A stretch of 42,496 nt of DNA from Sulfuritalea sp. (lineage in GTDB: Bacteria; Pseudomonadota; Gammaproteobacteria; Burkholderiales; Rhodocyclaceae), in contig WYAY01000003.1 in the NCBI GenBank assembly GCA_011526165.1, positions 1 to 42,496 on the forward strand. Direction: 5' to 3'. The notes under the pieces were generated by a model that saw only the letters and a program-made list of their open reading frames with translations, was not told the origin of the DNA and ran no database searches. Of the stretch, positions 12,507-29,742 are shown in pieces. The number at the start of each line of letters is the position of its first letter. The first letter of the stretch is position 1. A program made the position numbers and the translations under genes.

Positions 12507-14690
<2,184 letters not shown>

Positions 14691-14698
14691 GGCGGGCA

Positions 14699-14722
14699 AA
14701 AGTCAGTTTCCACGAGACGGCG
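14699..14722 (+). repeat. 24-bp dispersed repeat, copy 4
   Basis: AAAGTCAGT core with GAGACGGCG end. It is intergenic, beginning 8 bp after the pobA stop, and is the most diverged copy in the middle (TTTCCAC). Confidence 0.7.
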
Positions 14723-14772
14723 TCTCGACCTGCCCAAGGGCGGCGGGCTGCGCGACGGCCCGGAAAAGCCTT

Positions 14773-14807
14773 TTGACGCGCCCTGAAAAATTGTATACAG
14801 TCTGTAT
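14773..14807 (+). promoter_or_regulatory. vanA promoter with overlapping GntR-type operator
   Basis: TTGACG at 14773-14778 and TACAGT at 14796-14801 with a 17-bp spacer form a plausible sigma-70 promoter. Overlapping the -10 is a perfect 13-bp palindrome, ATACAG-T-CTGTAT (14795-14807), as well as the octamer TGTATACA (14792-14799). Placement over the -10 fits repression by the GntR protein encoded two genes downstream. Confidence 0.65.
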
Positions 14808-14837
14808 TCATTATTGTGGCGTGGCATAGGAGGTCCC

Positions 14838-15938
14838 ATGGGTCAGGCAAAACCGCAGACCGGCTTTCCGCTCAACGCCTGGTATGCCGTCGCCTACGAC
14901 GTCGAAGTCGGGCGCGCGCTGATGTCCCGTACTGTCTGCAGCCGAAAGCTGGTCGTGTACCGGCGGGCGGACAACGTCCCGGTGGTGCTGGAGGATGCCT
15001 GCTGGCACCGTTTGCTGCCGCTCTCGAAGGGGCGGCTGGACGGCGACAACGTCGTTTGCGGATATCACGGCCTGGTATTCAATCCCGGGGGAAGATGTAT
15101 ACATATGCCCTCCCAGGACACCCTCAATCCCTCTGCTTGCGTGCGGGCATTCCCGGCCGTCGAGCGCCATCGCTTCATCTGGGTCTGGATGGGCGATCCC
15201 GCGCTTGCCGATGCAGAGCGAATTCCCGACATGCACTGGAACGACGATCCCGCCTGGGCCGGCGACGGCAAGGTGATCCATGTCAAGTGCGACTATCGCC
15301 TGGTGGTCGACAACCTGATGGACCTGACCCATGAGGCGTTCGTGCATGGATCGAGCATCGGCAACCGCGCCGTGGCCGAGGCGCCCTTCGAGGTCACGCA
15401 TACCGACGAGACGGCCACGGTGACGCGCTGGATGCTGGACATCGATCCGCCGCCGTTCTGGGCCTTCCAGTTGCGCAAGAAGACCGGCAGCGTGGTCCGC
15501 TGCGACCGCTGGCAGATCATCCGTTTCGAGGCGCCCTGCACGGTGACCATCGATGTCGGCGTCGCGCCGGCCGGCACGGGCGCACCGCAAGGCGACCGTA
15601 CGCAAGGCGTCAACGGCTATGTCCTGAACACCATTACGCCGGAAACCGAGACCACCTGCCATTATTTCTGGGCCTTCTGCCGCAACTACAGCCTGCATGA
15701 GCAGGGGCTCACGCAGACGCTGCGGGAAGGCGTCTCGCGCGTGTTCGGCGAGGACGAGGTGATTCTCGAGGCGCAGCAGCAGGCCATCCTCGACCATCCG
15801 GAGAAAGTGTTCTACAACCTGCGCATCGACGCCGGCGCGATGTGGGCGCGACGCATCATCGACCGGATGGTCGAGGCGGAGCGGAGCGGGACGCCGCCCG
15901 CGGAATCGGCGATTTCGTTGCGCGCGACGACAATCTGA
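14838..15938 (+). CDS. vanA: Vanillate O-demethylase, Rieske oxygenase subunit
   Basis: A 366-residue Rieske non-haem iron monooxygenase. It would oxidise the methoxyl of vanillate (3-methoxy-4-hydroxybenzoate) to release formaldehyde and protocatechuate. The Rieske cluster ligands are C55-x-H57 and C74-x2-H77 (CWHR and CGYHG). The mononuclear iron site begins N159-x2-D162-x2-H165-x4-H170 (DNLMDLTHEAFVH). Start is ATG 14838 with a strong AGGAGG at 14828-14833. The substrate is inferred from family and neighbours; related methoxybenzoates such as syringate are possible. A second TGTATACA octamer lies inside the gene at 15096. Confidence 0.88.
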   Translation: MGQAKPQTGFPLNAWYAVAYDVEVGRALMSRTVCSRKLVVYRRADNVPVVLEDACWHRLLPLSKGRLDGDNVVCGYHGLVFNPGGRCIHMPSQDTLNPSACVRAFPAVERHRFIWVWMGDPALADAERIPDMHWNDDPAWAGDGKVIHVKCDYRLVVDNLMDLTHEAFVHGSSIGNRAVAEAPFEVTHTDETATVTRWMLDIDPPPFWAFQLRKKTGSVVRCDRWQIIRFEAPCTVTIDVGVAPAGTGAPQGDRTQGVNGYVLNTITPETETTCHYFWAFCRNYSLHEQGLTQTLREGVSRVFGEDEVILEAQQQAILDHPEKVFYNLRIDAGAMWARRIIDRMVEAERSGTPPAESAISLRATTI

Positions 15939-15953
15939 GACAGGAGTGAAGCC

Positions 15954-16706
15954 ATGGCCCAACCCATTCCGCTGCAAAAGGACCCCTCCCAGACCGACCG
16001 TGCCCTGCTCGGCATTCGCGACCTGGTGCTGCGCGGCGAATTCAAGACGGGAGAGCGGCTGCCTGAACTGGCGCTGGTCGAACTGCTCGGCGTGTCGCGC
16101 ACGCCGATCCGGGCAGCGTTGCAGAAGCTGGCGGAGGAAGGCTTGCTCGAAGCATCCCAGCCGACCGGCTACACGGTGCGCGGCTTCAGCGAAACCGAGA
16201 TCGCCGATGCCATCGAGGTGCGCGGCACCCTGGAGGCCCTGGCGGCACGAATGGCAGCCGAGCGCGGCGTGTCCGCGTCGTTTCTTGCCGCCATGTCGGA
16301 TTGTCTGGGCCGCATCGAAGCGCTGCTGACGAAGGTCAAGCCGGGGCGCGATTTTCTCGCGCAGTACTGCCAGTTCAACACCCAGTTCCACGAATTGCTG
16401 GCCGAGGCGTCCGGCAGCGAAATCGTCGCCCGCGCCCTGACGCGGGCCGGTTCCCTGCCGTTTGCCGGCCACAACGCCTTTGTCTCCGTCCAGGGGGAGA
16501 TCCCCGCTTCGCTGGAAATCTTCCGGATCGCCCAGCGCCAGCATCGCGAAATCCTCGAAGCCATCGAGGCGCGTTCCAGCGCACGCGTCGAGCCCCTGGT
16601 CAAGGAGCACGCGCGCCTTGCGTACAAGAATCTTCAACTGGCCCTGCAGAACAACGAGGCCATGAAAACTCTGCCCGGCGCGTCGCTCATCCGCCGCCGG
16701 CCCTGA
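15954..16706 (+). CDS. vanR: GntR-family (FCD) regulator, VanR-like
   Basis: A 250-residue regulator with an N-terminal winged HTH (residues about 15-75, LPELALVELLGVSRTPIRAALQKLAEEGLLE) and an all-helical FCD ligand-binding domain. It lies between vanA and vanB and starts at ATG 15954 after AGGAG. VanR proteins of this type repress vanAB and are released by vanillate, so it probably binds the palindrome at 14795-14807 (inference). Confidence 0.88.
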   Translation: MAQPIPLQKDPSQTDRALLGIRDLVLRGEFKTGERLPELALVELLGVSRTPIRAALQKLAEEGLLEASQPTGYTVRGFSETEIADAIEVRGTLEALAARMAAERGVSASFLAAMSDCLGRIEALLTKVKPGRDFLAQYCQFNTQFHELLAEASGSEIVARALTRAGSLPFAGHNAFVSVQGEIPASLEIFRIAQRQHREILEAIEARSSARVEPLVKEHARLAYKNLQLALQNNEAMKTLPGASLIRRRP

Positions 16707-16723
16707 TCCACGGGGGGCGCGAC

Positions 16724-17710
16724 ATGGAATCTCTCGAGACCTGGATGCGGACGACCCTGGCATCCGTCCGCGACCTGACGCCGACTATCCGCCTCTTCGA
16801 ACTCCAGCCGCCCGCCCGCCGCCCGGCATGGTCGCCGGGTGCGCATGTCCGCGTGCGCGTGGCGATCGACGGCCGCCCGGCCGTCCGCCGCTACTCCCTG
16901 ATCGACGACGGCAGCGACGACGGGCGGCTGCGCATCGCCGTGAAGCTGGCGGAAAACGGACTGGGCGGCTCTCGCGCCATGTGGGCGCTGCGGCCCGGGG
17001 AGGGCGTGGACATCTCCGCGCCGGAGAACCATTTCGAACTCGGCCTCGCCGCACCGTCCTACACCCTGGTGGCGGGCGGCGTCGGCATCACCCCGCTGCT
17101 GGGCATGGCCCGCTGCCTGGCGCGCACGCGGCGCCCGGTGCGCTTCCACTACAGCGTGCGCAACCGGGAGGAAGCCGCTTTTGCCGAGTTGCTCCGGACC
17201 TGGCTCGGCGAGGGCTTCCGCCTCCACGCGGAAGACGAGTCCGGCAGGCTCGACTTCGCGCAAATCATCGAACCGATCCCGGCGCAGGGCGAGCTCTACC
17301 TCTGCGGACCGATCGGCATGCTGGAGGCCGCGCGCGCGGCCTGGCAAGCCGGCGGCAGGCCCGCCTCGCTGCTGCGCTACGAATCCTTCGCTTCCAGCGG
17401 CCATTACGCCAACCAGTCCTTCACGGCAGTGCTGCCGCGCTTCGGCCGCGAGCTGCAGGTGCCGGCGCACCAGACCCTGCTCTCCGCGCTCGAAGAGGCC
17501 GGCATCGAGGTCCTCGCCGATTGCCGGCGCGGCGAATGCGGCCTGTGCGCAGTCGACATCCTGGCCTGTGATGCGCCGGTGGACCACCGCGACGTCTTCT
17601 TCAGCGACGACGAGAAGGCCGGCAACCGCAAGCTGTGCGCCTGCGTCTCGCGGCCCGCCGGCGGCAGGATCGAGATCGATACCGCCTACCGCGGGCCGGT
17701 GCCGGCCTGA
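16724..17710 (+). CDS. vanB: Vanillate O-demethylase, ferredoxin reductase subunit
   Basis: A 328-residue phthalate-dioxygenase-reductase type protein that passes electrons from NAD(P)H to the VanA Rieske centre. Order of domains: flavin-binding barrel (RRYSLI, residues 55-60), NAD(P)-binding domain (VAGGVGITPLLGMA, residues 116-129; YLCGP), then a C-terminal plant-type 2Fe-2S domain with C267-x4-C272-x2-C275-x29-C305. The start ATG 16724 is preceded by a G-rich site. Only 16 bp separate its stop from the MetVF gene, which places the corrinoid genes in the same transcription unit. It might also supply electrons to the corrinoid activator (speculative). Confidence 0.9.
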   Translation: MESLETWMRTTLASVRDLTPTIRLFELQPPARRPAWSPGAHVRVRVAIDGRPAVRRYSLIDDGSDDGRLRIAVKLAENGLGGSRAMWALRPGEGVDISAPENHFELGLAAPSYTLVAGGVGITPLLGMARCLARTRRPVRFHYSVRNREEAAFAELLRTWLGEGFRLHAEDESGRLDFAQIIEPIPAQGELYLCGPIGMLEAARAAWQAGGRPASLLRYESFASSGHYANQSFTAVLPRFGRELQVPAHQTLLSALEEAGIEVLADCRRGECGLCAVDILACDAPVDHRDVFFSDDEKAGNRKLCACVSRPAGGRIEIDTAYRGPVPA

Positions 17711-17726
17711 ACGGGGCGCAGCCGCC

Positions 17727-19145
17727 ATGTACGCCGCCCGCCTCTGGTCCGTCCGTCACGCCCGCGGCCTGCACCGCGTGTATGAGTATTTCTCGCGCCT
17801 CGCCCCGGCGTTCGCGCCGCTGCTGCGCCTGATCGGCGAGCGGCGCGCCGAGGCCCTGCTGCATCCCCTCGAGCGGGCGGCGAAGGGCTTCATGTTCGAC
17901 TGCCGCGAATGCGGCCAGTGCGTCCTCTCGGCCACCGGCATGGCCTGCCCGATGAACTGCCCCAAGGAAATGCGCAATGGCCCCTGCGGCGGCGTGCGCG
18001 AGGGCGGCCGTTGCGAGGTGCGGCCCGACATGCGCTGCGTCTGGGTCGAGGCCACCGAAGGCACCAAGCGCATCGCCCCCGACCATCTGGCCCATCCGAC
18101 GCCCCTGTTGCCGGCCATCGATGTGCGCAAGCACGGCAGCTCCACCTGGATCCAGGTCGTCCGCGGCCGCCCCGACCCGGCCTTCCAGCCGCCGGTGGGC
18201 GACCGCACTGTCGCGGTTGCCGAGTACGGTCCATTCGAGCAAGCCTGCAACTCGGGCCGCTTCGTCGTCACGGTCGAAGTGGCGCCGCCGGATTCGGCCG
18301 ATCCGCAGGCGCTGCTCGCCCGGGCCGGCAAGTTCGACGGGCTGGTGGACGCCATAAACATCACCGACGGCGCCGGCGGCAACTGCCACATGTCGAGCGT
18401 GGCGGCTTCCGCCATACTCGCCGCCCACGGCTACTCGCCGGTCTATCAGATTGCCTGCCGCGACAGGAACCGCATCGCCATCCAGGGCGACATGCTCGGC
18501 GCCGCGGCCCTCGGCGTGAAGAACATTCTCTGCATCACCGGCGACGACGTCAGCCAGGGCGACCATCCCCAGGCCAAGCCGGTGTTCGACCTCGATGCCG
18601 TTTCCCTCCTGCACATCGCCCGCAACATGTGCGACCGCGGCGAGTACGCCTCGGGGCGCAAGCTCGATACGCCGCCCGACTTTTTCGTCGGCGCCACGGC
18701 GAATCCCTTCGTGCCGCCCCACGCCGACCGCATCGCCAACCTCGAGAAGAAGATCGCGGCCGGCGCGCGCTTCATCCAGACCCAGTTCTGCTTCGACGTG
18801 CCCCTGCTCGAATCCTTCATGAAGGAAGTGCGCCGGCGCGGGCTGCACTGCCGCGCCAGCATCGTCGTCGGCGTCGGCACCCTGGGCTCGGCGCGCGCCC
18901 TGCGCTGGATGGCCGCGCACGTGCCCGGCGTGCACGTGCCCGAGCGCCTGCTGGCGCGCATCGCCGCCGCCACCGACCAGAAGGCCGAGACGAAGCGGGC
19001 CTGCATCGAGATCGTCCGGGCGGTTGCCGCGATCGAAGGCGTGGCCGGCGTGCACCTGATGGGCCACAGGAACGAGGACGTGCTGGCCGAGATCATCGTC
19101 GAATCCGGCGTGCGCGGCGCGTCGGCGCAAAAAACCTTGCAATGA
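17727..19145 (+). CDS. MetV-MetF fusion: methylenetetrahydrofolate reductase with N-terminal Cys-rich domain
   Basis: A 472-residue protein. Residues 50-110 form a cysteine-rich MetV-type module with eight Cys (C59, C62, C65, C74, C78, C87, C96, C104; CRECGQCVLS, CPMNCPKEMRNGPCGG), likely binding metal or Fe-S. Residues about 190-460 are the TIM-barrel flavoprotein MetF (FVVTVEVAPPD, NITDGAGG, LCITGDD, FIQTQFCFD). In acetogens MetV and MetF are separate subunits; here they are one polypeptide. In this context the enzyme probably oxidises methyl-THF from O-demethylation to methylene-THF. ATG 17727, 16 bp after vanB. Confidence 0.87.
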   Translation: MYAARLWSVRHARGLHRVYEYFSRLAPAFAPLLRLIGERRAEALLHPLERAAKGFMFDCRECGQCVLSATGMACPMNCPKEMRNGPCGGVREGGRCEVRPDMRCVWVEATEGTKRIAPDHLAHPTPLLPAIDVRKHGSSTWIQVVRGRPDPAFQPPVGDRTVAVAEYGPFEQACNSGRFVVTVEVAPPDSADPQALLARAGKFDGLVDAINITDGAGGNCHMSSVAASAILAAHGYSPVYQIACRDRNRIAIQGDMLGAAALGVKNILCITGDDVSQGDHPQAKPVFDLDAVSLLHIARNMCDRGEYASGRKLDTPPDFFVGATANPFVPPHADRIANLEKKIAAGARFIQTQFCFDVPLLESFMKEVRRRGLHCRASIVVGVGTLGSARALRWMAAHVPGVHVPERLLARIAAATDQKAETKRACIEIVRAVAAIEGVAGVHLMGHRNEDVLAEIIVESGVRGASAQKTLQ

Positions 19146-19161
19146 AGCCACGGAGACGGGA

Positions 19162-19824
19162 ATGAGCGGAATGAACGAGCAGGAAGCGCAACTGGTGGAA
19201 TGGCTGGCCGACATGCGCGAGGAGGAGGCTCACGAGCTGGCCAACCGGATGCTGCTGGAAGAGGGCGCCGATCCGCTGCGCGTGCTGGAATTGTGTCGCA
19301 TGGCCATGGATGTCGTCGGCAAGCGCTTCGAGGAGGGCGAGTATTTCCTGCCCGAGCTGGTGCTGGCCGGCGAGATGCTCGAGACGATCGGCGCCGTCGC
19401 CAAGCCGCTCATCGTGCAGGGCGAAGGCGGCGCGGCGGCGAAGCTCGGCCGCGTGCTGATCGGCACGGTGCACGGCGACCTGCACGACATCGGCAAGAAC
19501 ATCGTCAGCTTCATGCTCGACATCAACGGTTTCGAGGTCAAGGACATCGGCATCGACGTGCCGGTCAAGACCTTCATCGACGAAATCAACGAGTTCAAGC
19601 CCGACGTGGTGGGCCTTTCGGGCTTCCTGACCCTGGCCTTTGATTCCATGAAGGAGACCATAGCCGCCTTCGAAAAGGAGGGCATGCGCGACAGGTTCAA
19701 GATCATGATCGGCGGCGGGCAGATCGACGAGACCGTGCGCGCCTACACCGGCGCCGATGCCTTCGGCGTGAATGCCGTCGAGGCGGTCAATCTGTGCCGC
19801 GGCTGGACGGGAGCGGCGGCATGA
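19162..19824 (+). CDS. Corrinoid protein of an O-demethylase-type methyltransferase
   Basis: A 220-residue cobalamin-binding protein. Residues 1-90 are the helical cap domain (B12-binding 2) and residues about 95-215 the Rossmann-like B12 domain. The base-off/His-on signature D106-L-H108-D-I-G111 is intact, with H108 as lower axial cobalt ligand. A conserved Ser (S153, GLSGFLT) and a GGG loop (184-186) follow. It carries the methyl group between the two methyltransferases encoded beside it, like MtvC/OdmA of acetogens. It starts at ATG 19162 after GGAG. Its stop overlaps the next ATG by four bases. Confidence 0.92.
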   Translation: MSGMNEQEAQLVEWLADMREEEAHELANRMLLEEGADPLRVLELCRMAMDVVGKRFEEGEYFLPELVLAGEMLETIGAVAKPLIVQGEGGAAAKLGRVLIGTVHGDLHDIGKNIVSFMLDINGFEVKDIGIDVPVKTFIDEINEFKPDVVGLSGFLTLAFDSMKETIAAFEKEGMRDRFKIMIGGGQIDETVRAYTGADAFGVNAVEAVNLCRGWTGAAA

Positions 19825-21095
19825 GCGAGATGATCGGGCCGTATGAGCAGACCGCCGAAGCCAAGGCCGCCTACGACGCGCGTTGGCAGCGCCTGCTTTC
19901 CCTTGCTCGCCTCGAACAACCCGACCGCATGCCGGTCGGCCTGCACAGCTTCTTCTGGCCCGCCAACTACGGCGGCATCACCTACAAGGAGCTGATGTAC
20001 GACTACGACAAGGCGAAGCAGGTCACCCTCGATGCGGCCATCGAACTGGAGCCGGACGGCGTCTATCCGCTGCTCCTCGGCAGCACCATCGGCCGCATGC
20101 TGGAGAAGTTCGACTTCAAGCAGCTGCAGTGGCCGGGCCACGGCGTCGGCGACATGCAGCCCTTCCAGTACCTCGACCGCGAGTACATGAAGGCCGAGGA
20201 GTACGACGACTTCCTCTTTGACCCCACCGGTTTCTACCTGCACAAGTACCTGCCGCGCGTGCTCGGCGTCTTCGAAGGCTTCGACAAGCTGCCCAGGTTC
20301 GCCGGCATGCACTACCTGCGCACGATGTACGGCATGCGCCCGTTCGCGTTGCCGGAAGTGCGCGCCTCGTTCGACAGGATCGTCGCCGCCGCCGAGGAAA
20401 CCAACACGCTGTTCGCGCACCACCTCGACTGGGTGCAGCGCCTCAGGGCCGCCGGCTTCCCGCTCGCCAACGGCACCGTGGCGACGTCGCCCTACGACAT
20501 CATCGCCGACTACTTCCGCGGCGCCACCGGCATGATGAAGGACTTGTACCGCCACAAGGACAAGCTCAAACTGGTGCTCGGCAAGATGTCGACCATCGTC
20601 ACGCGCATCACCATCGAGAACGCCAGACTGGCCGGCCACCCGATCGTCTTCATCCCCATCCACTGGGCGCCGGACGCCTTCATGAGCCCGAAGCAGTTCG
20701 AGGAGTTCTGGTGGCCGCCGTTCCGCAAGATGCTGATGGGCATGATCGAGGCCGACCTGATCCCGATGCCGATGTGGGAATCCGACTGCACCAAGCGCCT
20801 GGAGGTCATCAAGGACATTCCGGCCGGCAAGTGCATCTACTGGTTCGAGCGCACCGACCTGGTGAAGGCCTACGAGGTGCTCGGCGACCGCGTCGCCCTG
20901 CGCGGCAACCTCTCGCCTTCGCTGCTGACCACCGGCACGCCGGAGGAGGTCGATGCCGCCGTCAAGCACCTCGTGGACAACATCTGGAACAAGGGCGGCT
21001 GCATGATGCTCGACGGCGCCTTCGGCATTCCGGACGAGACCCCGGTCGACAACGTGCGCGCCATGTTCAATGCGGCGCGGAAGTACGCCGGCTGA
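19821..21095 (+). CDS. UroD-family methyltransferase (candidate methyl donor:corrinoid methyltransferase I)
   Basis: A 424-residue uroporphyrinogen-decarboxylase-fold protein. In clusters with a corrinoid protein, such proteins move a methyl group from an O-methylated substrate to Co(I). Recognisable segments are FFWPANYGGITYKELMYDY, GNLSPSLLTTGTPEEV and GIPDETPVDNVRAM. The His-x-Cys zinc motif of MtaA-type enzymes is not seen at the expected place; the segment is MWESDC (residues 318-323), with other Cys at 338 and 394. The substrate is inferred to be a methoxyaromatic such as vanillate from the vanAB and protocatechuate context. It is not a haem-pathway HemE. Confidence 0.85.
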   Translation: MSEMIGPYEQTAEAKAAYDARWQRLLSLARLEQPDRMPVGLHSFFWPANYGGITYKELMYDYDKAKQVTLDAAIELEPDGVYPLLLGSTIGRMLEKFDFKQLQWPGHGVGDMQPFQYLDREYMKAEEYDDFLFDPTGFYLHKYLPRVLGVFEGFDKLPRFAGMHYLRTMYGMRPFALPEVRASFDRIVAAAEETNTLFAHHLDWVQRLRAAGFPLANGTVATSPYDIIADYFRGATGMMKDLYRHKDKLKLVLGKMSTIVTRITIENARLAGHPIVFIPIHWAPDAFMSPKQFEEFWWPPFRKMLMGMIEADLIPMPMWESDCTKRLEVIKDIPAGKCIYWFERTDLVKAYEVLGDRVALRGNLSPSLLTTGTPEEVDAAVKHLVDNIWNKGGCMMLDGAFGIPDETPVDNVRAMFNAARKYAG

Positions 21096-21817
21096 TGCAG
21101 ACGCGCCGCGAAATCGCCCTGGCGGGCGCACGGCAGAAACGGCTGCGTGACGCAGAGATCCTGCGCCGGGTGGCCGCCGCCCCCGTGCGCGGCGGCGCCG
21201 CCGCGCTGCGCGCGCGCCTGCGCGAAGAGGCGCTCGAACTGGTGCGGACGGAGCACCTGCTCGAAGCCGCCTACAGCTGTCGCATCGTGCCCCTCGATGC
21301 GCCGCCCGCGCCGTTCCTGCGCGCCGGCGGCGAGCGCCTGCATGCGCCGCGGCTGCTGCCGGAGAGCGGAACATTGACCGCCCTCGGTTGCGCGGTGTGC
21401 ACCGCCGGCCCGAAGATCGAGGCGCGCGTGCGCGCGCTGTTCGCCGGGAAGCGTCCCTCGCTGGCGCTGGCGCTCGACGAGTTGGGCAACGCGCTGCTGT
21501 TCGAGGTTTCGCGGCGGGCCCAGGACCGCATGCTGGCCGACGCCGTGCGCCAGGGACTGACTTTCGGCGGCGAGCTGCGCGCCGGCGACCCGGGACTGGC
21601 GCTGGACGCGCAGGCGGCGGTGCTGCGTCTCGCGCAGGCCGAGGGGATCGGCGTCCGCCTGGGCAGCGGCCAGGCGATGCAGCCGCTCAAGTCGGTGTCG
21701 ATGGTGTTCGGCATCGGCATCGACCTGCCGAAGACGCACTGGTCGCGCTGCGACGATTGTTCCTCGCGCGAGAAGTGCGGCCTGGCGGGCCGCTCCGCAA
21801 CGCTGCAGGCGGCCTGA
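21095..21817 (+). CDS. Stand-alone B12-dependent methionine synthase activation-domain-like protein
   Basis: A 240-residue protein resembling the activation domain of cobalamin-dependent methionine synthase, but without the rest of MetH. Evidence is the mid-protein GCAVCTAGPKIEARVRALFAG, LALDELGNALLFEVSRR and the LKSVSMVFGIGI strand. The C terminus has C219-x2-C222-x5-C228 (RCDDCSSREKCGLAGR), suggesting a metal site. Proteins like this occur in corrinoid methyltransferase operons and may help re-methylate or reactivate the corrinoid protein. The ATG overlaps the previous stop by one base (TGATG). Contains repeat copy 5 (read as AVRQGLTF). Confidence 0.75.
   Translation: MQTRREIALAGARQKRLRDAEILRRVAAAPVRGGAAALRARLREEALELVRTEHLLEAAYSCRIVPLDAPPAPFLRAGGERLHAPRLLPESGTLTALGCAVCTAGPKIEARVRALFAGKRPSLALALDELGNALLFEVSRRAQDRMLADAVRQGLTFGGELRAGDPGLALDAQAAVLRLAQAEGIGVRLGSGQAMQPLKSVSMVFGIGIDLPKTHWSRCDDCSSREKCGLAGRSATLQAA
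21541..21564 (-). repeat. 24-bp dispersed repeat, copy 5
   Basis: On the minus strand: AAAGTCAGTCC core and CACGGCG end. It lies inside the activation-domain gene, antisense to it. Confidence 0.7.
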
Positions 21818-21819
21818 CC

Positions 21820-23670
21820 GTGCCGGCGCGCAGACCCCACAGTCTGAATTTCCCAGAGATCGCGCGGGCGATCGCCAGCGACGGCGAGGAGACGCTCTAT
21901 CAGAGCGCACGCCGCAACGGCGTGCGCCTCGTCGGCGCCTGCGGCGGCCGCGGCGCCTGCGGCACCTGTGTCGTGCACATCGTCGAAGGCGCGGTCGAGC
22001 TCGAAGGCGGGCAGGCCGAGGCCGACGGGGAGGGGGGCACCGGCGGAGAAGCGGCCGCCGGCGGCGCAGGGACGCGCAAGAAATGGGTGCGCGCCTGCCG
22101 TGCGCGCGCCCGCTCGGACTGCACGGTCGAGGTGGCGCCGCGCTCCCTCGCGCCGGTGGCGCGCGCGGAAATCGGCGCCGACGATGCCGAAGACAGGCTG
22201 CCGCTCGATCCGGCGGTCGTCGGTCAGGATGTCAGCGTCCCCGAGGCGACGCTCTCCGATACGCTTTCGGACGCCGACCGGATCGCGCGGGCGCTGGCAC
22301 TGCCGCTCGATGCGGTGGACCTCCAGGCGGCCGTCCGGCTGCCGCAGGTCATGCGCGACGGAGGATGGTCGCTGCGCGTCTTCCGGCGCGGCCGCGAACT
22401 GATCGGCGTGGCGCCGGCCGGCAGCCGCACGCTGGGCCTGGCCGTCGATCTCGGCACGACCAATGCCGCCGGCTTCCTGGTGGACCTGGAAAGCGGCGCG
22501 CGCCTCGCCAGCCTGGGCATCGAGAACCCGCAGACGGCCTGGGGCGCCGACCTGATCAGCCGCATCAACCACGCCACCCGCGCGGGGGAGGGCGGCGAGG
22601 AACTGCGCATGGCCGCCGTCGCCGCCCTGAATGCCCTGGCGCACGACCTGTGCCGGGCCGTCGGCGCGCACATCGAAGAGATCGTCGACGTGGCCGTCTG
22701 CGGCAATACGGCGATGCACCACCTGCTGCTCGGCCTGCCGGTGGCGCAGCTCGGCCGCGCGCCCTTCGTCGCCGCCGTGCGCGATGCCGTCGATGTGAAG
22801 GCGCGCGAACTGGGGCTGGCGGTGAATCCGGGGGCCTGGGTACACCTGGCGCCGATCGTCGGCGGCTTCGTCGGCGGCGACCATGTGACCACCCTGCTCG
22901 CCACCGAACGCCATTGGCGCGCCGTGCCCGCCAGCCTCGTCATGGACATCGGCACCAACACCGAAATCTCCCTGATCCACGGCGGCGCGCGCCTGACCGC
23001 CTCCTGCCCCTCCGGTCCGGCGCTCGAGGGCGGGCACATCTCCTGCGGCATGCGCGCCGCGGAAGGGGCCATCGAGCGCGTCTCGTACGAGGAGGGGCGC
23101 ATCGTCGCCCGGACCATCGGCGGGCGGCAGGCCGTCGGCTTGTGCGGCTCGGGCGTGCTCGATGCGCTGGCCGTCCTGCACCGGGCGCGCATCGTGGACG
23201 ATCGGGGCCGGCTGGCCGCCGGACAGGCCGTTGTCGAAGAAACGAACGGCCAGCGCGCCGCGCTGCTGGCGCCGGGCGTGGCGCTCACCCAGGACGACGT
23301 GCGCGCGGTGCAGCTGGCCAAGGCGGCGATCCGCACCGGCACGGAACTGCTGCTGCGCGAAGCGGGGCTGCGGGCGGACGAGATCGGCTGCTTCGTCATC
23401 GCCGGCGCCTTCGGCGCCTACATCGACGTGCGCAGCGGCATCGACATCGGCCTCTTCCCCGAACTGCCGCCGGAGCGCTTCGTGCAGGTCGGCAACGCCG
23501 CCGGCGTCGGCATCCGCATGATGCTGGCCTCGCAGGCGGCGCGCGCCCGCGCCCGCGAGCTGGCCGAAGGCTGCCGCTACATCGAGCTGTCCACCTTCCC
23601 CGATTTCCAGAAAACCTTCCTGAGCCACATCGGCTTCGGCCGCAAGGATACTTTGAGGAGAACCGCGTGA
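21820..23670 (+). CDS. ASKHA-domain reductive activator of corrinoid proteins (RACE/RACo-like) with N-terminal 2Fe-2S domain
   Basis: A 616-residue iron-sulfur ATPase that would reduce inactive Co(II) corrinoid back to Co(I). The N-terminal ferredoxin domain has C41-x5-C47-x2-C50 and a distant C93. Between them lies a Gly/Glu/Ala-rich stretch at residues 62-86 that looks like an insertion. After a linker, the DUF4445/ASKHA part begins with the phosphate-binding VDLGTTN (209-215) and includes AVCGNTAMHHLL, MDIGTNTEI, CGSGVLDALAVL and IAGAFGAYID. The start is GTG 21820, 2 bp after the previous stop. The stop overlaps the next GTG (GTGA). Confidence 0.9.
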   Translation: MPARRPHSLNFPEIARAIASDGEETLYQSARRNGVRLVGACGGRGACGTCVVHIVEGAVELEGGQAEADGEGGTGGEAAAGGAGTRKKWVRACRARARSDCTVEVAPRSLAPVARAEIGADDAEDRLPLDPAVVGQDVSVPEATLSDTLSDADRIARALALPLDAVDLQAAVRLPQVMRDGGWSLRVFRRGRELIGVAPAGSRTLGLAVDLGTTNAAGFLVDLESGARLASLGIENPQTAWGADLISRINHATRAGEGGEELRMAAVAALNALAHDLCRAVGAHIEEIVDVAVCGNTAMHHLLLGLPVAQLGRAPFVAAVRDAVDVKARELGLAVNPGAWVHLAPIVGGFVGGDHVTTLLATERHWRAVPASLVMDIGTNTEISLIHGGARLTASCPSGPALEGGHISCGMRAAEGAIERVSYEEGRIVARTIGGRQAVGLCGSGVLDALAVLHRARIVDDRGRLAAGQAVVEETNGQRAALLAPGVALTQDDVRAVQLAKAAIRTGTELLLREAGLRADEIGCFVIAGAFGAYIDVRSGIDIGLFPELPPERFVQVGNAAGVGIRMMLASQAARARARELAEGCRYIELSTFPDFQKTFLSHIGFGRKDTLRRTA

Positions 23671-24554
23671 CGCAAGCAAACGGCTTCGCCCTGAACATCA
23701 TCGGTGAGCGCATCAACCCCGGCTTCAAGAGCACCCGGGCGCTGTTCGACAACGAGGACATCGCGGGCATCCAGACCCTGGCGGTGAAGCAGGCGGAAGC
23801 CGGTGCCGCCTACCTGAACGTGAACATCGGCGCGCGCGCGCTCACCGATGTCGATTTCATGGCCCGCGTCATCCGCGCCATCCAGGACGTCGTCGCGGTT
23901 CCGCTGTCCTTCGATTTCCCGAGCAAGGCCGTGCAGGAGGTCTGCCTGGCCACCTACGATCCGGCGCGCGCCGGCGGCCGGCTGCCCATCGTCAACTCGA
24001 TCACCGAGCATCGCTGGGACCTGATGGAGCTCTACGGGAAATACAAATTCAAGGTCATCCTGATGGCCTCCGAGCGGGTCGTGGACGGCGTCGCCAAGGG
24101 CAACAAGACCGCGGACGAGATCTATTCGACGGCGAAGCGGGCCGCGCTGCGCCTGCAGCGGGACTACGGCATGCCGCTGGACGACATCTACATCGACATG
24201 TCGGTGTCGGCCATCATCGCCGACACCGAGGCGCTGAACCGCAGCACCCTCGACGCCATCCGCATGATCGGCGCCGATCCGGAACTGAAGGGCGTGCACA
24301 TGATGGGCGGGCTGTCCAACGTCGGCCAGCAGTTGCCGCCCAAGGCGGCCGACGGTTCCGATCTCAAGCATTGCCTGGAGAATGCCTTCCTCACGCTGGC
24401 GGTGCCCTGCGGCTTCGACACCGTGCTCGGTACGCCGTGGCGCGGCTATGCGCCCCTGCCGGAGGACCATTACGTGCTGGCGACCTACCGCAATTTCCTC
24501 GAGCAGAGCGGCACGAACGCGCTGCGCGCCGTGCGAAAGTTCTACCGTGCCTGA
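23667..24554 (+). CDS. Methyltetrahydrofolate:corrinoid methyltransferase (methyltransferase II)
   Basis: A 295-residue pterin-binding TIM barrel of the DHPS/MeTr/MtrH type. It would transfer the methyl group from the methyl-corrinoid protein to tetrahydrofolate. Family features are the N-terminal FALNIIGERINPGFK, AGAAYLNVNIGA, PLSFDFPSKAVQEV, PIVNSI, ILMAS and HMMGGLSNVGQQLP. The start is GTG 23667 with GAGGAG at 23655-23660, overlapping the activator stop. Together with the corrinoid protein, the UroD-type enzyme and the activator, this completes the four-component O-demethylase set known from acetogens. Confidence 0.9.
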   Translation: MTQANGFALNIIGERINPGFKSTRALFDNEDIAGIQTLAVKQAEAGAAYLNVNIGARALTDVDFMARVIRAIQDVVAVPLSFDFPSKAVQEVCLATYDPARAGGRLPIVNSITEHRWDLMELYGKYKFKVILMASERVVDGVAKGNKTADEIYSTAKRAALRLQRDYGMPLDDIYIDMSVSAIIADTEALNRSTLDAIRMIGADPELKGVHMMGGLSNVGQQLPPKAADGSDLKHCLENAFLTLAVPCGFDTVLGTPWRGYAPLPEDHYVLATYRNFLEQSGTNALRAVRKFYRA

Positions 24555-24558
24555 CGCG

Positions 24559-25812
24559 ATGAGCCCCGACGCGAAGGAATTCGCCGTGGTCGCCGGCGGC
24601 TGGTTCGACGGCGAACGGCGCCACGAGGCCGGTCCGGCGACCTTCGTCGTCCGCGACGGGCGCATCGCGGACATCGCCGCCGGCGACCATGCTGCCGAAT
24701 GTGCGCGGCGCGGCCTGGCGGTGACGCGCGGCGGCTATCTCATGCCGGGGCTGGTGGATGCGCATGCGCACCTCTTCCTCGATGGCGCGCCGACCGACGC
24801 CAAGGTGCGCGCCGAGCACCTCAAGCAGCCGCTCGAACAACTGACCGGGGCGGCGCGCGCCAGCGCGCGCCAGGCGCTTGCCTGCGGCGTCACGCTGGTG
24901 CGCGACGCCGGCGACCGGCACGGCATCAACAACCGCATCCGCGAAGAGGCGGCGGACCCGCGCAGCGGCCTCCCGCGCGTGCGCTCCGGCGGCCTCGGCG
25001 TCAAGCGCGCCAAACGCTATGGCGCCTTCATGGCCGCCGACGTCGACGACGCGGACAGCATCCGCGAGTCGGTCGCGGCGCTGGCACAGAGCAACGACGA
25101 GATCAAGCTGATCCTCACCGGCATCATCGACTTCGAGGCCGGGGCGGTGACCGACGAGCCGCAATTCAGCCTGGAGGAAACGCGCCTGATCGTCGACACG
25201 GCGCGGGCCTGCGGCCGCCCGACCTTCGCCCATTGCAGCGGCGCCAAGGGCCTCGCCATCGCCGCCGCAGCCGGCGTCGGCTCCATCGAGCATGGCTTCT
25301 TCATGGATCGCGGGACGCTGGCGCTGATGCGCGACAACCAGGTCGCCTGGACGCCGACCTTCTGCCCGGTGTATTTCCAATGGGCGCATCCCGAGGCCGT
25401 CGGCTGGTCGCCGCAGACGGTGGGCCACCTGCGGCGCATCCTCGACGACCATGCGCGCCATCTGCAGTTGGCCCATGAAATGGGCGTCGTTCTGCTGCTC
25501 GGCACCGATGCGGGCAGCATGGGCGTGCGGCACGGCCATGCGGTTTTCGAGGAGATCGTGCGCTATGCCGAGGCGGGCCTCGGACTCGAAGCGGCCCTGC
25601 ACGCCGCCACCGCGGCGGCGCGCCGCCATTTCGGCCTCGCCTCGCCCGTGCTCGCCAAGGGGGGTGAATTCGATGCCCTGCTGCTTGCGGCATCCCCCTT
25701 CGGGAACCCGACCTGCCTTCGGCAGCCGCAGGCGGTCTGGGCTGCGCGCACGACCGGACCGCGGCCCATGCATGCTGACGCATCCGACAGGGATTTATCG
25801 ATGAACAAATAG
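24559..25812 (+). CDS. Amidohydrolase family protein (imidazolonepropionase/prolidase-like)
   Basis: A 417-residue metal-dependent amidohydrolase. The N-terminal beta-sandwich leads to H69-A-H71 (LVDAHAHLF). Further likely ligands are His in FAHCSGA, His in SIEHGFF and Asp in LGTDAGS. The substrate is unknown. It follows the methyltransferase gene by 4 bp and may be in the same transcript, although it is not a known part of O-demethylation systems. A GTG at 24547 would be an alternative start. Its last residues (DASDRDLSMNK) run just past the domain. Confidence 0.8.
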   Translation: MSPDAKEFAVVAGGWFDGERRHEAGPATFVVRDGRIADIAAGDHAAECARRGLAVTRGGYLMPGLVDAHAHLFLDGAPTDAKVRAEHLKQPLEQLTGAARASARQALACGVTLVRDAGDRHGINNRIREEAADPRSGLPRVRSGGLGVKRAKRYGAFMAADVDDADSIRESVAALAQSNDEIKLILTGIIDFEAGAVTDEPQFSLEETRLIVDTARACGRPTFAHCSGAKGLAIAAAAGVGSIEHGFFMDRGTLALMRDNQVAWTPTFCPVYFQWAHPEAVGWSPQTVGHLRRILDDHARHLQLAHEMGVVLLLGTDAGSMGVRHGHAVFEEIVRYAEAGLGLEAALHAATAAARRHFGLASPVLAKGGEFDALLLAASPFGNPTCLRQPQAVWAARTTGPRPMHADASDRDLSMNK

Positions 25813-25919
25813 AGAGAGTTGCCGGACCGCGACCCGGATGACGGCGCGGCCCAGGCGGCCGATAGTTGAGGAACCACAGAGTCGTACCATCCATCAACCA
25901 ATGAAGGAGGAGACAAACC

Positions 25920-26948
25920 ATGGGACTGTTCAAAAAACTGCTCGCCACGACCATCGGACTGGCAATGTGGCAAACGGCCTTCGCCGCGGACGTGACGCTG
26001 CGTTTCCACCAGATGCTGCCGCCGCAGGCGACGATTCCCTCGAAAGCCATCGTGCCCTGGGCGCAGAAGGTCGAGAAGGAGAGCGGCGGGCGCATCAAGA
26101 TCCAGCACTTCCCGAGCATGCAACTGGGCGGCAAACCCTCCGATCTGCTCGACCAGGCCAAGAACGGCGTCGTCGACATCATATGGACCGTGCTCGGCTA
26201 CACGCCGGGCCGCTTCCCGAAGTCCGAGGTGTTCGAGCTGCCCTTCTTCAGCGGCTTGGCCGAACCCGCCTCGCGCGCCTTCCAGGAGTACGTCGAGAAG
26301 CACGCGATGGACGAGTTCAAGGACGTCAAGCTCATCGCGGTGCACGTGCACGGCCCCGGCCTGATCCACAGCAAGGACCCGATCACCCGGCTGGAGGACT
26401 TCAAGGGCGTGAAGGTGCGCGGCGGCTCGCGCATTGTTAACATCATGCTCGAGCAGCTCGGCGCCACGCCGGTCGGCATGCCGGTGCCGGCCGTCAGCGA
26501 GGGACTGTCCAAGGGCGTCATCACCGCCACGACCATTCCCTGGGAAGTCACCCCGGCGCTGAAGGTGCAGCAGCTCGTCAAGAACCACACCGGTTTTGCC
26601 GGCGAGCAGGGCTTGTACACCCAGACCTTCGCGGTGGCGATGAACAAGGCCGCCTACGACAAGCTGCCGGCCGACCTGAAGAAGGTGATCGACGCCAACA
26701 GCGGCTCCGATACGGCGGCCATGTTCGGGCGGGCGATGGACGAGGGCGACAAGCGCGGACTGGATATGGCCCAGAAGGCGGGCAACAAGATCCACATGCT
26801 CGATGCCGTGGAAACCCAGACCTGGCGGCGTACCGCCGCCGCCGTGCGCGGCATCTGGTACAAGGAGGTGGCGGGCAAGGGCATCGACGGCCCGAAGCTG
26901 GCGGCCGAGGCCGAGGCCCTCATCGAGAAATACAACAAGAAGAAGTAA
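25920..26948 (+). CDS. TRAP transporter solute-binding protein, DctP family
   Basis: A 342-residue periplasmic protein with a clear signal peptide (MGLFKKLLATTIGLAMWQTAFA, cleavage before ADVTLRF). The DctP fold is shown by LRFHQMLPP, SMQLGG, VVDIIWTVLGYTPGRFP, KVRGGSRIVN and the ATTIPWEV segment. It should capture an organic acid for a tripartite transporter, but no DctQ or DctM membrane-subunit genes are nearby. The ligand may be an aromatic or aliphatic carboxylate given the neighbours. A strong AAGGAGG precedes ATG 25920, and a large hairpin follows the stop. Confidence 0.92.
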   Translation: MGLFKKLLATTIGLAMWQTAFAADVTLRFHQMLPPQATIPSKAIVPWAQKVEKESGGRIKIQHFPSMQLGGKPSDLLDQAKNGVVDIIWTVLGYTPGRFPKSEVFELPFFSGLAEPASRAFQEYVEKHAMDEFKDVKLIAVHVHGPGLIHSKDPITRLEDFKGVKVRGGSRIVNIMLEQLGATPVGMPVPAVSEGLSKGVITATTIPWEVTPALKVQQLVKNHTGFAGEQGLYTQTFAVAMNKAAYDKLPADLKKVIDANSGSDTAAMFGRAMDEGDKRGLDMAQKAGNKIHMLDAVETQTWRRTAAAVRGIWYKEVAGKGIDGPKLAAEAEALIEKYNKKK

Positions 26949-27897: not shown

Positions 27898-29742
27898 ATG
27901 AACGGAGGATTCGGCTGGCAGTCCGTGGCGTTCGATGTCAGGGTGGACAAGCGCCGCGACGGCGCGACGCTGATCGAGCCGACGCGGCGGCTGGCGGACT
28001 ATCCCGGCCGCGTCACCGACCGGCTGGAATACTGGGCGCAACAGGCGCCCGAGCGGATCTTCGTCGCGCAACGCGAGCCCGGCGGCGCGTGGCAGTCCTT
28101 CACCTATCGCGAAACCCTGGCCAGCGTGCGCAACATCGCTGCCGCCCTGGCCTTGCGCCAGCAGGACGGCCGGCTGTCCGCGGACCGGCCCATCGCCATC
28201 CTGTCGGGCAACGGCATCGATCACCTTCTGCTGGCCATGGCGGCCATGCATGTCGGCGTCCCCTACACCCCGGTCTCGACCGCCTATTCGCAGGCCAGAT
28301 CGGACCACAACAAGCTGCGCCACGTCTTCCAGCTGGTGACGCCGGGCATGGTGGCGGCGTTCGACGCGCAAGCCCTCGAGCCGGCCATCAGGCAGACCGT
28401 CGCCGCGGACGTGGAACTGGTATCGAACACCGGGGCGCTGGCCGGCCGGCCGTGCACCAGCCTGTTTCAGCTGGAAGGCGAAGCGGACCATGCCGCGCTG
28501 GAAGCGGCCCGTGCCGGCGTGCACGCCGACACCATTGCCAAGTTCCTGCTGACCTCGGGCTCGACCGGCCATCCCAAGGCGGTCGTCACCACCCACCGCA
28601 TGCTGTGCAGCAACCAGGCCATGCTGCTGCAGGCCCTGCCCTTTCTCGCCGAGGAGCCGCCGGTGCTGGTCGACTGGCTGCCCTGGAACCACACCTTCGG
28701 CGGCAGTCACAACGTCAATCTGGTGCTGTTCAACGGCGGCTCGCTCTACATCGACCACGGGCGGCCGATGCCGGGCGGCTTCGAGCCGACGCTGCGCAAC
28801 CTCTCGGACATTTCGCCGAGCGTCTATTTCAACGTGCCGAAGGGCTTCGAGCTGCTGGTCGTGGCGCTGCAGCGCGACGCGGCCCTGCGCGAGAAGTTCT
28901 TCCATCGCCTGCGCGCCTGCTTCTTCGCCGGGGCCGGCCTCTCGCAGCACACCTGGGATGCGCTGAACGACCTCGCGCAGCGGGAACGCGGCGCCGACAT
29001 GCCGGTCATCACCGGGCTGGGCGCCACCGAGTGCGCGCCCTCGGTGTGCTTCACCCGCCCGGGCACGCGGCTGGCGGGCGCGATCGGGTTGCCCGCCACG
29101 GGGAACGTCGTCAAGCTCGTGCCGGTGGAAGGCAAGCTGGAGATGCGCGTCAAGGGACCGAACGTCACGCCGGGCTATTGGCGCCAGCCCGAGATCAGCG
29201 CCGCCGCGTTCGATGAAGAAGGCTACTACCGGCTCGGCGATGCCGTGCGCTGGATCGACGAACGGGATGTCGATCAAGGCCTGATGTTCGACGGACGCAT
29301 CGCCGAGGACTTCAAGCTTTCCAGCGGCACCTGGGTCAGCGTCGGGCCGTTGCGCGCCAGGCTGCTGTCGGCCCTGAACCCCTTCGCGCAGGATGTGGTG
29401 ATCGCCGGATTGAACCGGGACGAACTGGGCATCCTGATCTTTCCGGACTGGGGCGCCTGCGCCGACTTCCTCGGCGTCGACGCCGGCTCGCCGCGCGACG
29501 GATGGCCGCTGGCGCGCCTGCGGGAGGAAATCGGGCGGCGCCTGCAGCGGCACAACGATTCGCACCCGGGCGGCTCGACCACCGTCAGGCGCGCCCTGCT
29601 GCAGCTGGAACCCCCCAGCCTGGACAAGGGCGAGGTGACCGACAAGGGCAGCATCAACCAGCGCATGGTCCTGGGCGGTCGCGCCGAACAGGTCGCGCGC
29701 CTGTACGAGGCCGCGCCGGACGGCGCCGTCATCGTCGCCTGA
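27898..29742 (+). CDS. fcs: Feruloyl-CoA synthetase-like acyl-CoA ligase
   Basis: A 614-residue AMP-forming ligase (ANL superfamily). The P-loop motif TSGSTGHPK is at residues 219-227. VDWLPWNHTFGGSHN, ITGLGATECAP and the YYRLGDAVRW adenylation motifs are present, followed by a C-terminal domain with SSGTWVSVGPLR. Length and the WLPWNHTFGG segment match the feruloyl-CoA synthase group, which activates hydroxycinnamates such as ferulate with ATP and CoA. No feruloyl-CoA hydratase-lyase or vanillin dehydrogenase gene lies in the window, so exact substrate and downstream route are uncertain. ATG 27898. Confidence 0.82.
   Translation: MNGGFGWQSVAFDVRVDKRRDGATLIEPTRRLADYPGRVTDRLEYWAQQAPERIFVAQREPGGAWQSFTYRETLASVRNIAAALALRQQDGRLSADRPIAILSGNGIDHLLLAMAAMHVGVPYTPVSTAYSQARSDHNKLRHVFQLVTPGMVAAFDAQALEPAIRQTVAADVELVSNTGALAGRPCTSLFQLEGEADHAALEAARAGVHADTIAKFLLTSGSTGHPKAVVTTHRMLCSNQAMLLQALPFLAEEPPVLVDWLPWNHTFGGSHNVNLVLFNGGSLYIDHGRPMPGGFEPTLRNLSDISPSVYFNVPKGFELLVVALQRDAALREKFFHRLRACFFAGAGLSQHTWDALNDLAQRERGADMPVITGLGATECAPSVCFTRPGTRLAGAIGLPATGNVVKLVPVEGKLEMRVKGPNVTPGYWRQPEISAAAFDEEGYYRLGDAVRWIDERDVDQGLMFDGRIAEDFKLSSGTWVSVGPLRARLLSALNPFAQDVVIAGLNRDELGILIFPDWGACADFLGVDAGSPRDGWPLARLREEIGRRLQRHNDSHPGGSTTVRRALLQLEPPSLDKGEVTDKGSINQRMVLGGRAEQVARLYEAAPDGAVIVA

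Follow-up and report, generated by a model that had tools for sequence, protein, structure and literature searches.

Rieske and corrinoid O-demethylase genes in one putative operon of a Sulfuritalea genome

We analysed a stretch of 42,496 nt (the window; contig WYAY01000003.1 of a Sulfuritalea sp. metagenome-assembled genome, MAG) and focused on a row of ten genes that run in one direction at 14838-25812. An O2-dependent demethylase of the Rieske VanAB type and a demethylase that depends on corrinoid and tetrahydrofolate (THF) are encoded together in this tight row, as indicated by the gene junctions and the Pfam families and as an earlier note on the same DNA had proposed. We interpret the row as one operon for meta-methoxylated benzoates (e.g. 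vanillate) with two entry enzymes of unrelated chemistry, and give this interpretation a probability of about two in three. It builds on gene content, gene order, conservation, operator-like sites, and the capabilities of the host genome, from which the substrate of the methyltransferase MT1, the direction of MetVF, co-transcription, the effector, and the shift with oxygen are predicted. Papers are cited by PubMed Central (PMC) number.

Gene content and order of the row

The features of the row are collected in Table 1. All nine genes from vanA to MT2 are open reading frames of the window, and the gene list and coordinates of the earlier note were right for these nine. The row was ended one gene early, however, since the amidohydrolase gene follows MT2 after 4 bp. 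Along the ten genes the junctions are +15, +17, +16, +16, -4, -1, +2, -4, and +4 bp. Those of the nine genes thus lie between -4 and +17, in line with the reported gaps of at most 17 bp, but only three stop/start overlaps (-4, -1, and -4) were found where four had been counted. An alternative upstream GTG of the RACo-type activator gene, at 21775, would give a fourth. Pfam and NCBIfam assigned families to the proteins of the row, the activation protein excepted.

Table 1. Features of the gene row and its upstream region (window coordinates).
Feature	Position	Strand	Predicted product or role	Evidence
vanA	14838-15938	+	type III Rieske vanillate O-demethylase oxygenase	PF00355, PF19112 (VanA_C), tree
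gntR	15954-16706	+	FCD/VanR-group repressor, Atu1419-like	PF00392, PF07729, tree
vanB	16724-17710	+	FAD/NAD/[2Fe-2S] reductase	PF00970, PF00175, PF00111
metVF	17727-19145	+	MetV-like (DUF5981) domain fused to methylene-THF reductase	PF12225, PF02219
corrinoid protein	19162-19824	+	methyl carrier	PF02607, PF02310
MT1	19821-21095	+	UroD-family methyltransferase (substrate:corrinoid), predicted O-demethylase	PF01208
activation protein	21095-21817	+	MetH-activation-domain-like protein	predicted fold
RACo-type activator	21820-23670 (GTG start)	+	[2Fe-2S]/ASKHA corrinoid reductive activator	PF14574, PF17651, PF17650, PF00111
MT2	23667-24554 (GTG start)	+	methylcorrinoid:THF methyltransferase	PF00809
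amidohydrolase	24559-25812	+	last gene of the row	PF01979 (profile search on 24541-25812)
promoter TTGACG-17 bp-TACAGT	14773-14801	+	sigma-70-like promoter upstream of vanA	
TGTATACA palindrome	14792-14799	.	predicted GntR operator, overlaps the -10 box, 46 bp before vanA	
second TGTATACA	15096-15103	.	possible looping operator inside vanA	

The earlier note had suggested a search for the same gene order in Rhodocyclales. The full ten-gene order is present in a second species, represented by a MAG of the same genus (L027/L034, our locus labels), on a 1.05-Mb contig, and the order vanA-gntR-vanB-metVF-corrinoid protein-methyltransferase is found in two alphaproteobacterial MAGs (L057 and L109). 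The ratio of nonsynonymous to synonymous substitution rates (dN/dS) between the window and L034 is 0.12-0.34 for all ten genes, indicating purifying selection. A join by chance or by assembly is unlikely because of this recurrence and these ratios. Both specific candidates were rejected: an assembly chimera by the same order in other MAGs, and a chance neighbourhood by the expected Rieske density and the recurrence counts given below. MT2 is followed by the amidohydrolase gene in 40 of the 47 relatives with enough sequence at that place. The solved structures matched by the protein belong to varied amidohydrolases, and to call it a cyclohydrolase or deformylase would be a guess.

The corrinoid-dependent demethylase

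MT1 (UroD family), the corrinoid protein, MT2 (MeTr family), and the RACo-type activator share this one locus, as judged by Pfam and by solved structures. The best solved match of the corrinoid protein is 4jgi (E 1.3e-50), MT2 is closest to 2yci and then to 4o0q, and the RACo-type activator matches 3zyy at E 5.7e-79. We take 4jgi and 4o0q to be from the O-demethylases of Desulfitobacterium. The metVF gene is predicted to run as a methyl-THF oxidase; metV and metF are separate genes in the Paracoccus, Azoarcus, and Sinorhizobium rows (L146-L148).

PF01208 is the only Pfam family of MT1. Its AlphaFold2 model (predicted local distance difference test score, pLDDT, 94.5) has the UroD/MtaA fold; the fold-search library ends in April 2026 and does not contain CdmB. 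By profile search the closest solved match is CdmB (9rui, E 1.8e-50, best stretch residues 183-422), a match that gives no specificity. CdmB is a chloromethane enzyme that acts on haloalkanes and has the O-demethylases MtvB, OdmB, and VdmB as close relatives (PMC13222342). No chain of these three is among the 16 solved-structure matches of MT1. A glycine betaine type (MttB/MtgB) was ruled out, as MT1 does not belong to the trimethylamine-methyltransferase family.

The protein that the earlier note had named a B12-activation protein keeps this name by its predicted structure. Pfam and NCBIfam gave it no family at 1e-3, other sequence searches were also without result, and PF02965 was reached by only 2 of the 44 members of its family, with E 0.023 at best. 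The AlphaFold2 model built from a 44-sequence alignment has a mean pLDDT of 90.5, and all 19 of its fold matches at E <= 0.001 are MetH activation domains, at 13-19% identity. As modelled, the activation protein has the fold of the MetH activation domain. Cysteines 219, 222, and 228, near the C-terminus, are invariant and may mark a difference from that domain.

MT1 homologues were collected in one scan of named genomes (best 80 of 99 relatives, 79 distinct loci). Proteobacterial titles account for 77 of the 79 loci, mostly MAGs, with one locus each titled Terriglobia and Desulfuromonadales. The holders not labelled as MAGs are Thauera phenylacetica, Aromatoleum anaerobium, and Paramagnetospirillum caucaseum. 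The distribution is rare and patchy: strong matches are found in the host genome and in 3 of 59 relatives (G010, which belongs to the genus of the host, G021, and G045), matches at E <= 1e-60 in the host genome and in 1 of 368 other genomes of the class, and plasmid records gave no match at 1e-20. Six core genes (metVF, corrinoid protein, MT1, activation protein, RACo, and MT2) occur together in 36 of the 79 loci; the remaining loci are cut by contig ends or lack parts.

G021, a Sterolibacterium-type MAG, carries four MT1 paralogues on contigs C73, C83, C100, and C152 (L028-L031) that are 64-79% identical to the MT1 of the window. Only the C100 copy is seen with the activation protein, RACo, MT2, and amidohydrolase genes, a pattern which suggests several substrates served by shared components.

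The VanAB oxygenase

Aligned with dicamba demethylase DdmC, VanA matches at the Rieske ligands and at the D-x2-H-x4-H iron site, residues that presumably hold the Rieske cluster and the iron. On the VanA tree (41 rows) it joins the Rhodococcus ruber and R. qingshengii rows at a fork supported 100/99. In the plasmid records it is 76% identical to the Azospirillum B510 protein, 65-69% to those of Rhizobium, Roseomonas, Peteryoungia, and Cupriavidus, and 60.1% to a protein of R. ruber MSA14, with which the comparison was made instead of the R1 enzyme. By its sequence, the VanA of the window is a member of the type III vanillate demethylases. These include a mostly alphaproteobacterial subclade, and the type III VanAB of R. 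ruber R1 requires a meta-methoxy group, demethylating vanillate, 3-methoxybenzoate, and 5-methoxysalicylate, and syringate less (PMC9867520). Pfam identifies a VanB-type FAD/NAD/Fe2S2 reductase in the same row. A THF-dependent O-demethylase of the LigM/DesA type was ruled out, as the ten genes contain no GCV_T-family domain.

The vanA-gntR-vanB trio exists elsewhere as a stand-alone module. We inspected the gene order in ten plasmid regions that encode a VanA of type III-like sequence. The trio is annotated in five (Azospirillum B510, Rhizobium TA1, Roseomonas, A. thermophilum, and Peteryoungia) and was assigned by similarity in a sixth, unannotated region (Ciceribacter, L154); gntR is absent from the other four. 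The B510 trio lies near genes for a hydroxycinnamoyl-CoA hydratase/lyase and an AMP-binding ligase. The stand-alone trios (Azospirillum B510, Rhizobium, and Roseomonas) and the type III VanAB of R. ruber R1 (PMC9867520) resemble the VanAB of the window, with VanA proteins 60-76% identical. Where gntR is present, the trios also share the three-gene order and TGTATACA before vanA. They differ in that no corrinoid genes are annotated beside them in the stretches inspected, whereas the row of the window continues into a complete corrinoid demethylase. The type III loci of Rhodococcus have neither gntR nor TGTATACA.

Recurrence of the Rieske/corrinoid pairing

In 31 loci metVF immediately precedes the corrinoid gene, and 30 of them have at least 2.5 kb of upstream sequence. 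Of these 30 metVF-first operons, 9 have a gene for a Rieske VanA homologue upstream in the same orientation, and 7 of the 9 have one for a VanB homologue as well. The gap between the last van gene and metVF, measured with predicted starts, is 4-21 bp in seven of the nine pairings (16 bp from vanB in the window, 15 bp in L034); L057 and L109 have longer gaps of 376 and 351 bp. The number of Rieske neighbours expected from gene density is 0.004 (15 matches in 201 Mb, counting that of the host genome and using rounded sizes of the 59 relatives and the host), or 0.05 at one gene per Mb.

On the VanA tree, the label "in corrinoid operon" changes five times, and at least four of these changes are forced by starred branches. 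The paired VanA proteins fall into the groups window and L034; L057 and L109; L037, beside a Variovorax VanA; L068/L072/L080; and L083/L087. By these sequences, the pairing of a Rieske oxygenase with the corrinoid operon seems to have recurred in at least four Rieske lineages. The MT1 proteins of the window, L034, L037, and L041 form a clade with a Shimodaira-Hasegawa-like approximate likelihood ratio (SH-aLRT) of 100 and are at least 78% identical to that of the window, and the VanA genes near them belong to two lineages (that of L041 has the opposite orientation and precedes metVF by about 2.8 kb). One close MT1 clade beside two VanA lineages fits one shared substrate class. Of the homologues listed, set A2 comprised 43 of 55 and set A3 69 of 78, each with the window added; rows with stops or X were dropped. 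Besides the operon there is another type of neighbourhood, with opposite-strand VanA homologues near the MT1 genes of L051, L054, L062, L041, L050, and L110.

Operator and GntR regulator

The vanA promoter is the only promoter-like site that a simple consensus scan of 14300-26200 returned, with none inside the row; shuffled sequences gave a mean of 0.6 sites, so this result is weak by itself. The vanA gene of L034 has the same layout, read by eye (TTGACA-17-TACAAT). The palindrome TGTATACA over the -10 box is the core of ATGTATACAT, the site of Atu1419 (PMC7797058). Atu1419 is a VanR-group GntR repressor of Agrobacterium fabrum that binds ATGTATACAT over -10 boxes and also a degenerate site inside a target open reading frame, and it is able to form DNA loops. 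N5,N10-methylene-THF releases it, and the genes for a LigM-type vanillate demethylase and a methylene-THF reductase are among those under its control (PMC7797058). The window GntR has the metal ligands N142/H146/H197/H219 with the spacing of Atu1419 (4, 51, and 22) and the recognition-helix residues R49/T50/R53, both as named for Atu1419.

In 98 loci (1.47 Mb), TGTATACA occurs 33 times vs 4.8 expected from base composition, and 23 of the 33 sites lie at most 500 bp upstream of vanA, gntR, or metVF. Among the type III VanA loci of this set, TGTATACA is found within 130 bp upstream of vanA in all ten with gntR (window, L034, L057, L109, L114, L116, L142, L143, L154, and L155) and in none of the four without it (L113, L115, L144, and L145); the G045 loci L119 and L125 are outside the set. 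Predicted gene starts were used, L114 and L143 excepted (annotated start further out). L057 and L109 carry a further TGTATACA 56 and 48 bp before metVF. The palindrome also precedes gntR in L094 and L098, gntR-headed corrinoid rows with no van genes in the locus, and metVF in L038 and L042, which have no gntR in the locus. In Rhizobium johnstonii, TGTATACA separates the gene for a GntR (45% identical to that of the window) from the genes that it faces, which encode methylene-THF reductase and a GcvT-family protein, a layout like that of Atu1418-1420.

The two TGTATACA sites of the window are 304 bp apart, corresponding to 28.95 turns of 10.5 bp, and those of L034 are 307 bp apart. Intragenic sites at 290-307 bp from the promoter site are found in the window, L034 (5279), L116 (6243), and L154 (4243). 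They are written in different codons (for Cys-Ile in the window and L034, for Cys-Val-Tyr in L116 and L154), a hint that the DNA and not the protein is under selection.

The operator and the GntR sequence support one regulator sensing one-carbon (C1) units over both demethylation routes, and methylene-THF is inferred as its effector by analogy with Atu1419. The single regulator of the earlier note is likely for this reason, a single GntR gene with a matching operator.

Other TGTATACA sites of the host genome lie by an iron-transport gene, by a polyhydroxyalkanoate (PHA)-granule-type gene, and at a place with no gene named. Pairs about 2 kb apart occur on C61 of the host (L187, 4534 and 6625) and on C3 of G010 (L188, 5564 and 7614). 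The L187 row encodes an old yellow enzyme, a GntR, a thiolase, and an acyl-CoA ligase beside the Had and Oah genes. These pairs perhaps represent a second, related GntR regulon. None of these host sites was counted as a member of the vanA regulon, and the C61 set has its own GntR.

Capabilities of the host genome

The host MAG has 2.97 Mb in 255 contigs and is about 85% complete. It encodes cbb3 CcoN above the model cut-off, a terminal oxidase subunit called aa3-like because it scores 577 bits vs a cut-off of 671, and four more COX1-family proteins that NCBIfam leaves unnamed except for one weak CtaD match. Subunits N, O, and Q of a Bzd-type benzoyl-CoA reductase exceed their cut-offs, with another activase-type gene between, as do Had and Oah of the benzoyl-CoA route and the alpha subunit of 4-hydroxybenzoyl-CoA reductase (1261 bits, cut-off 995). 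From its genes, the host is inferred to be facultative, with oxic and anoxic aromatic routes. Because of the two reductases, the demethylation product need not enter only aerobic ring cleavage. The proposed hybrid with aerobic protocatechuate cleavage needs correction here: LigAB genes are neighbours of the row, but the corrinoid route is not tied to them since enzymes of the anoxic benzoyl-CoA route are encoded as well.

PurU is above its cut-off, and no match to formyl-THF synthetase was found in the 85%-complete genome, so that the THF route more likely ends with release of formate by PurU. For formaldehyde dehydrogenase the host has a piece at a contig edge (468 bits vs a cut-off of 544), and G010 has a match above the cut-off.

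Proposed mechanism and alternatives

With O2, VanB would pass electrons from NAD(P)H to VanA, which would hydroxylate the methoxy group and yield formaldehyde and protocatechuate. Without O2, or in parallel, the Co(I)-corrinoid protein would take the methyl group from the same kind of substrate on MT1. MT2 would move it from the corrinoid protein to THF, and MetVF would oxidise methyl-THF to methylene-THF, while RACo and the MetH-activation-like protein would restore oxidised corrinoid. As formaldehyde can also join THF, both routes would lead to methylene-THF, which we propose would free TGTATACA at the vanA promoter from its GntR repressor. With O2, protocatechuate would be cleaved by the neighbouring LigAB; without it, the compound could pass to the benzoyl-CoA route. 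A wider reading is that the pairing is a recurrent device, in which one transcription unit holds an O2-dependent and an O2-independent means of taking off the same methyl group, and methylene-THF, the one-carbon product of both, induces the two. We hold this tentatively, at a little below an even chance. If true, methoxyaromatic use would continue across oxic-anoxic shifts without a separate oxygen sensor.

Several observations weigh against the two-route operon or its regulation. The evidence on the row comes from MAG sequence. Canonical NarG is below its cut-off in all four genomes scored, the host included, and the best NarG-like protein of the host scores highest with the dimethyl sulfoxide (DMSO)-reductase II/ethylbenzene-dehydrogenase group. 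We found no assay in the literature for any member of this MT1 family, whose closest solved relative, CdmB, acts on haloalkanes and not on methoxyaromatics (PMC13222342). Of the 30 metVF-first operons, 21 have no Rieske gene directly upstream, and the Rieske-linked rows show no significant clustering on the MT1 tree (as low a value was reached in 58 of 500 shuffles). TGTATACA is absent from the loci of L037, L068/L072/L080, and L083/L087, so the regulator does not accompany every pairing. The intragenic site is present in only 4 of the 10 type III loci with gntR. Five of the seven TGTATACA sites of the host genome lie outside the row, some at unrelated genes, and a backwards control pattern occurs 3 times there vs 7 for TGTATACA (0 vs 10 in G010). 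The ligand and helix residues of GntR are shared by four more distant GntR rows, such ligands being common to metal-binding FCD regulators, and the fork that groups the window and L034 GntR with L094 and L098 is unstarred (90/93).

Among the alternatives, most weight falls on one that we still consider unlikely, namely that the corrinoid route is no anoxic back-up but operates alongside VanAB under oxic conditions, which would save NAD(P)H and bypass formaldehyde. One predicted promoter serves both systems, which would then be made together. Kindred gene rows occur in Paracoccus, Sinorhizobium, and Azoarcus, which live aerobically. Aerobic Ruegeria demethylates glycine betaine by a corrinoid system, and methyl-THF oxidation was suggested for its MetF2 (PMC12478193). 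However, the benzoyl-CoA reductase, 4-hydroxybenzoyl-CoA reductase, Had, and Oah of the host serve anoxic aromatic breakdown. The MT1 relatives include those of a Desulfuromonadales MAG and of Aromatoleum anaerobium, both anaerobic in their way of life.

Alternatively, the two enzymes may divide the methoxy groups, VanAB taking the meta position and MT1 the para position or another methoxyaromatic, with full demethylation of veratrate- or trimethoxybenzoate-like compounds. The meta-methoxy requirement of the R. ruber R1 enzyme (PMC9867520) agrees with this, and the four MT1 paralogues of G021 suggest substrate specialisation. Close MT1 proteins beside two VanA lineages, and the pairing of Rieske genes of other subfamilies as well, fit matched substrates better without being decisive, and we judge such a division fairly improbable.

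We think it quite improbable that the corrinoid system uses a non-aromatic donor, such as a haloalkane, and shares the operon with vanAB only since both feed methylene-THF. A C1-sensing regulator would tolerate any methyl donor, and the haloalkane specificity of CdmB (PMC13222342) points the same way. The closest solved structure need not be the closest in function, however, as MtvB, OdmB, and VdmB are missing from the 16 matches. The row also sits among protocatechuate genes, the linkage with Rieske enzymes is repeated in at least four lineages, and several MT1 paralogues occur in one genome.

Two head-to-tail units with vanAB and the corrinoid genes regulated apart, as the wide gaps of L057 and L109 with a TGTATACA for each unit might suggest, are very improbable for the window given the 16- and 15-bp vanB-metVF gaps of the window and L034, the absence of promoter-like sites inside the row in the consensus scan, and the same operator on both units of L057 and L109.

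Comparison with known systems and implications

The one-operon reading combines halves that are each known already. The corrinoid O-demethylases MtvABC, the OdmB-type system, and those of Desulfitobacterium likewise have a UroD-family MT1, a corrinoid protein, an MT2 that transfers to THF, and a RACo-type activator. We take MtvABC to be the Moorella system and the OdmB type that of Acetobacterium. They differ from the window row in its MetV-MetF fusion, MetH-activation-like protein, and upstream Rieske enzyme and GntR, and from its host in the aa3-like and cbb3 oxidases and in the lack of a formyl-THF synthetase match in the 85%-complete genome. The Cdm chloromethane system of Acetobacterium dehalogenans resembles the row through CdmB and differs in its haloalkane substrates, gene set, host, and neighbourhood (PMC13222342).

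The corrinoid protein, MetV/MetF, MT2, and an ASKHA activator also stand together in betaine-type rows, namely mtg of Ruegeria (PMC12478193) and the Paracoccus L146, Azoarcus L147, and Sinorhizobium L148 rows, the latter three (MetV/MetF-MeTr-ASKHA) located on plasmids. In these rows MetV and MetF are separate, and the stretches shown carry no Rieske annotation; a trimethylamine-methyltransferase-family MT1 is nearby in L146 and L148, and none is in the L147 stretch. The earlier note called the corrinoid system typical of anaerobic acetogens and Desulfitobacterium; aerobic corrinoid demethylation is, however, known for betaine (PMC12478193), and aerobes such as those three carry kindred rows. 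The Atu1419 regulon shares the VanR-group GntR, the ATGTATACAT-type site over the -10 box, the second site inside an open reading frame, and control of vanillate demethylation and methylene-THF reductase; its demethylase is of the THF-dependent LigM type, whereas the window has Rieske and corrinoid systems (PMC7797058).

Our searches of the open-access PMC literature turned up no description of a Rieske and a corrinoid demethylase in one operon. Passages of PMC11264602, PMC10602745, PMC8027834, and PMC8630106 report no such operon, and according to PMC11264602 none of its own MAGs has annotated mtv or mto genes. The title of PMC11161944 speaks of anaerobic and aerobic bacteria combined for lignin compounds.

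Methoxy groups are among the chief traits of lignin, whose aromatic carbon becomes accessible through demethylation. There is no settled account of how facultative bacteria carry this out in the absence of O2: according to an earlier study cited by PMC12366328, Rhodopseudomonas palustris needs its vanAB-type genes rpa3619-3621 for S-lignin units even anaerobically. For other lineages, the row offers a concrete answer, a corrinoid system adjoining VanAB and probably co-regulated with it. It ties together two enzyme classes usually assigned to different worlds, with a named operator and a candidate effector, and suggests a formaldehyde-free demethylation route native to Proteobacteria for lignin engineering. 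Its interest rests on the recurrence and on the predicted, shared C1-responsive switch.

Neighbouring genes in the window

Upstream of the row, LigK and PobA are above their cut-offs, and LigA, LigB, and a LigI-like hydrolase, which is below the cut-off of its model, are also encoded. Downstream are a DctP binding protein and then an acyl-CoA synthetase (27976-29739; PRK12582 is the best match, below its cut-off), which may feed aromatic acids into CoA-dependent routes.

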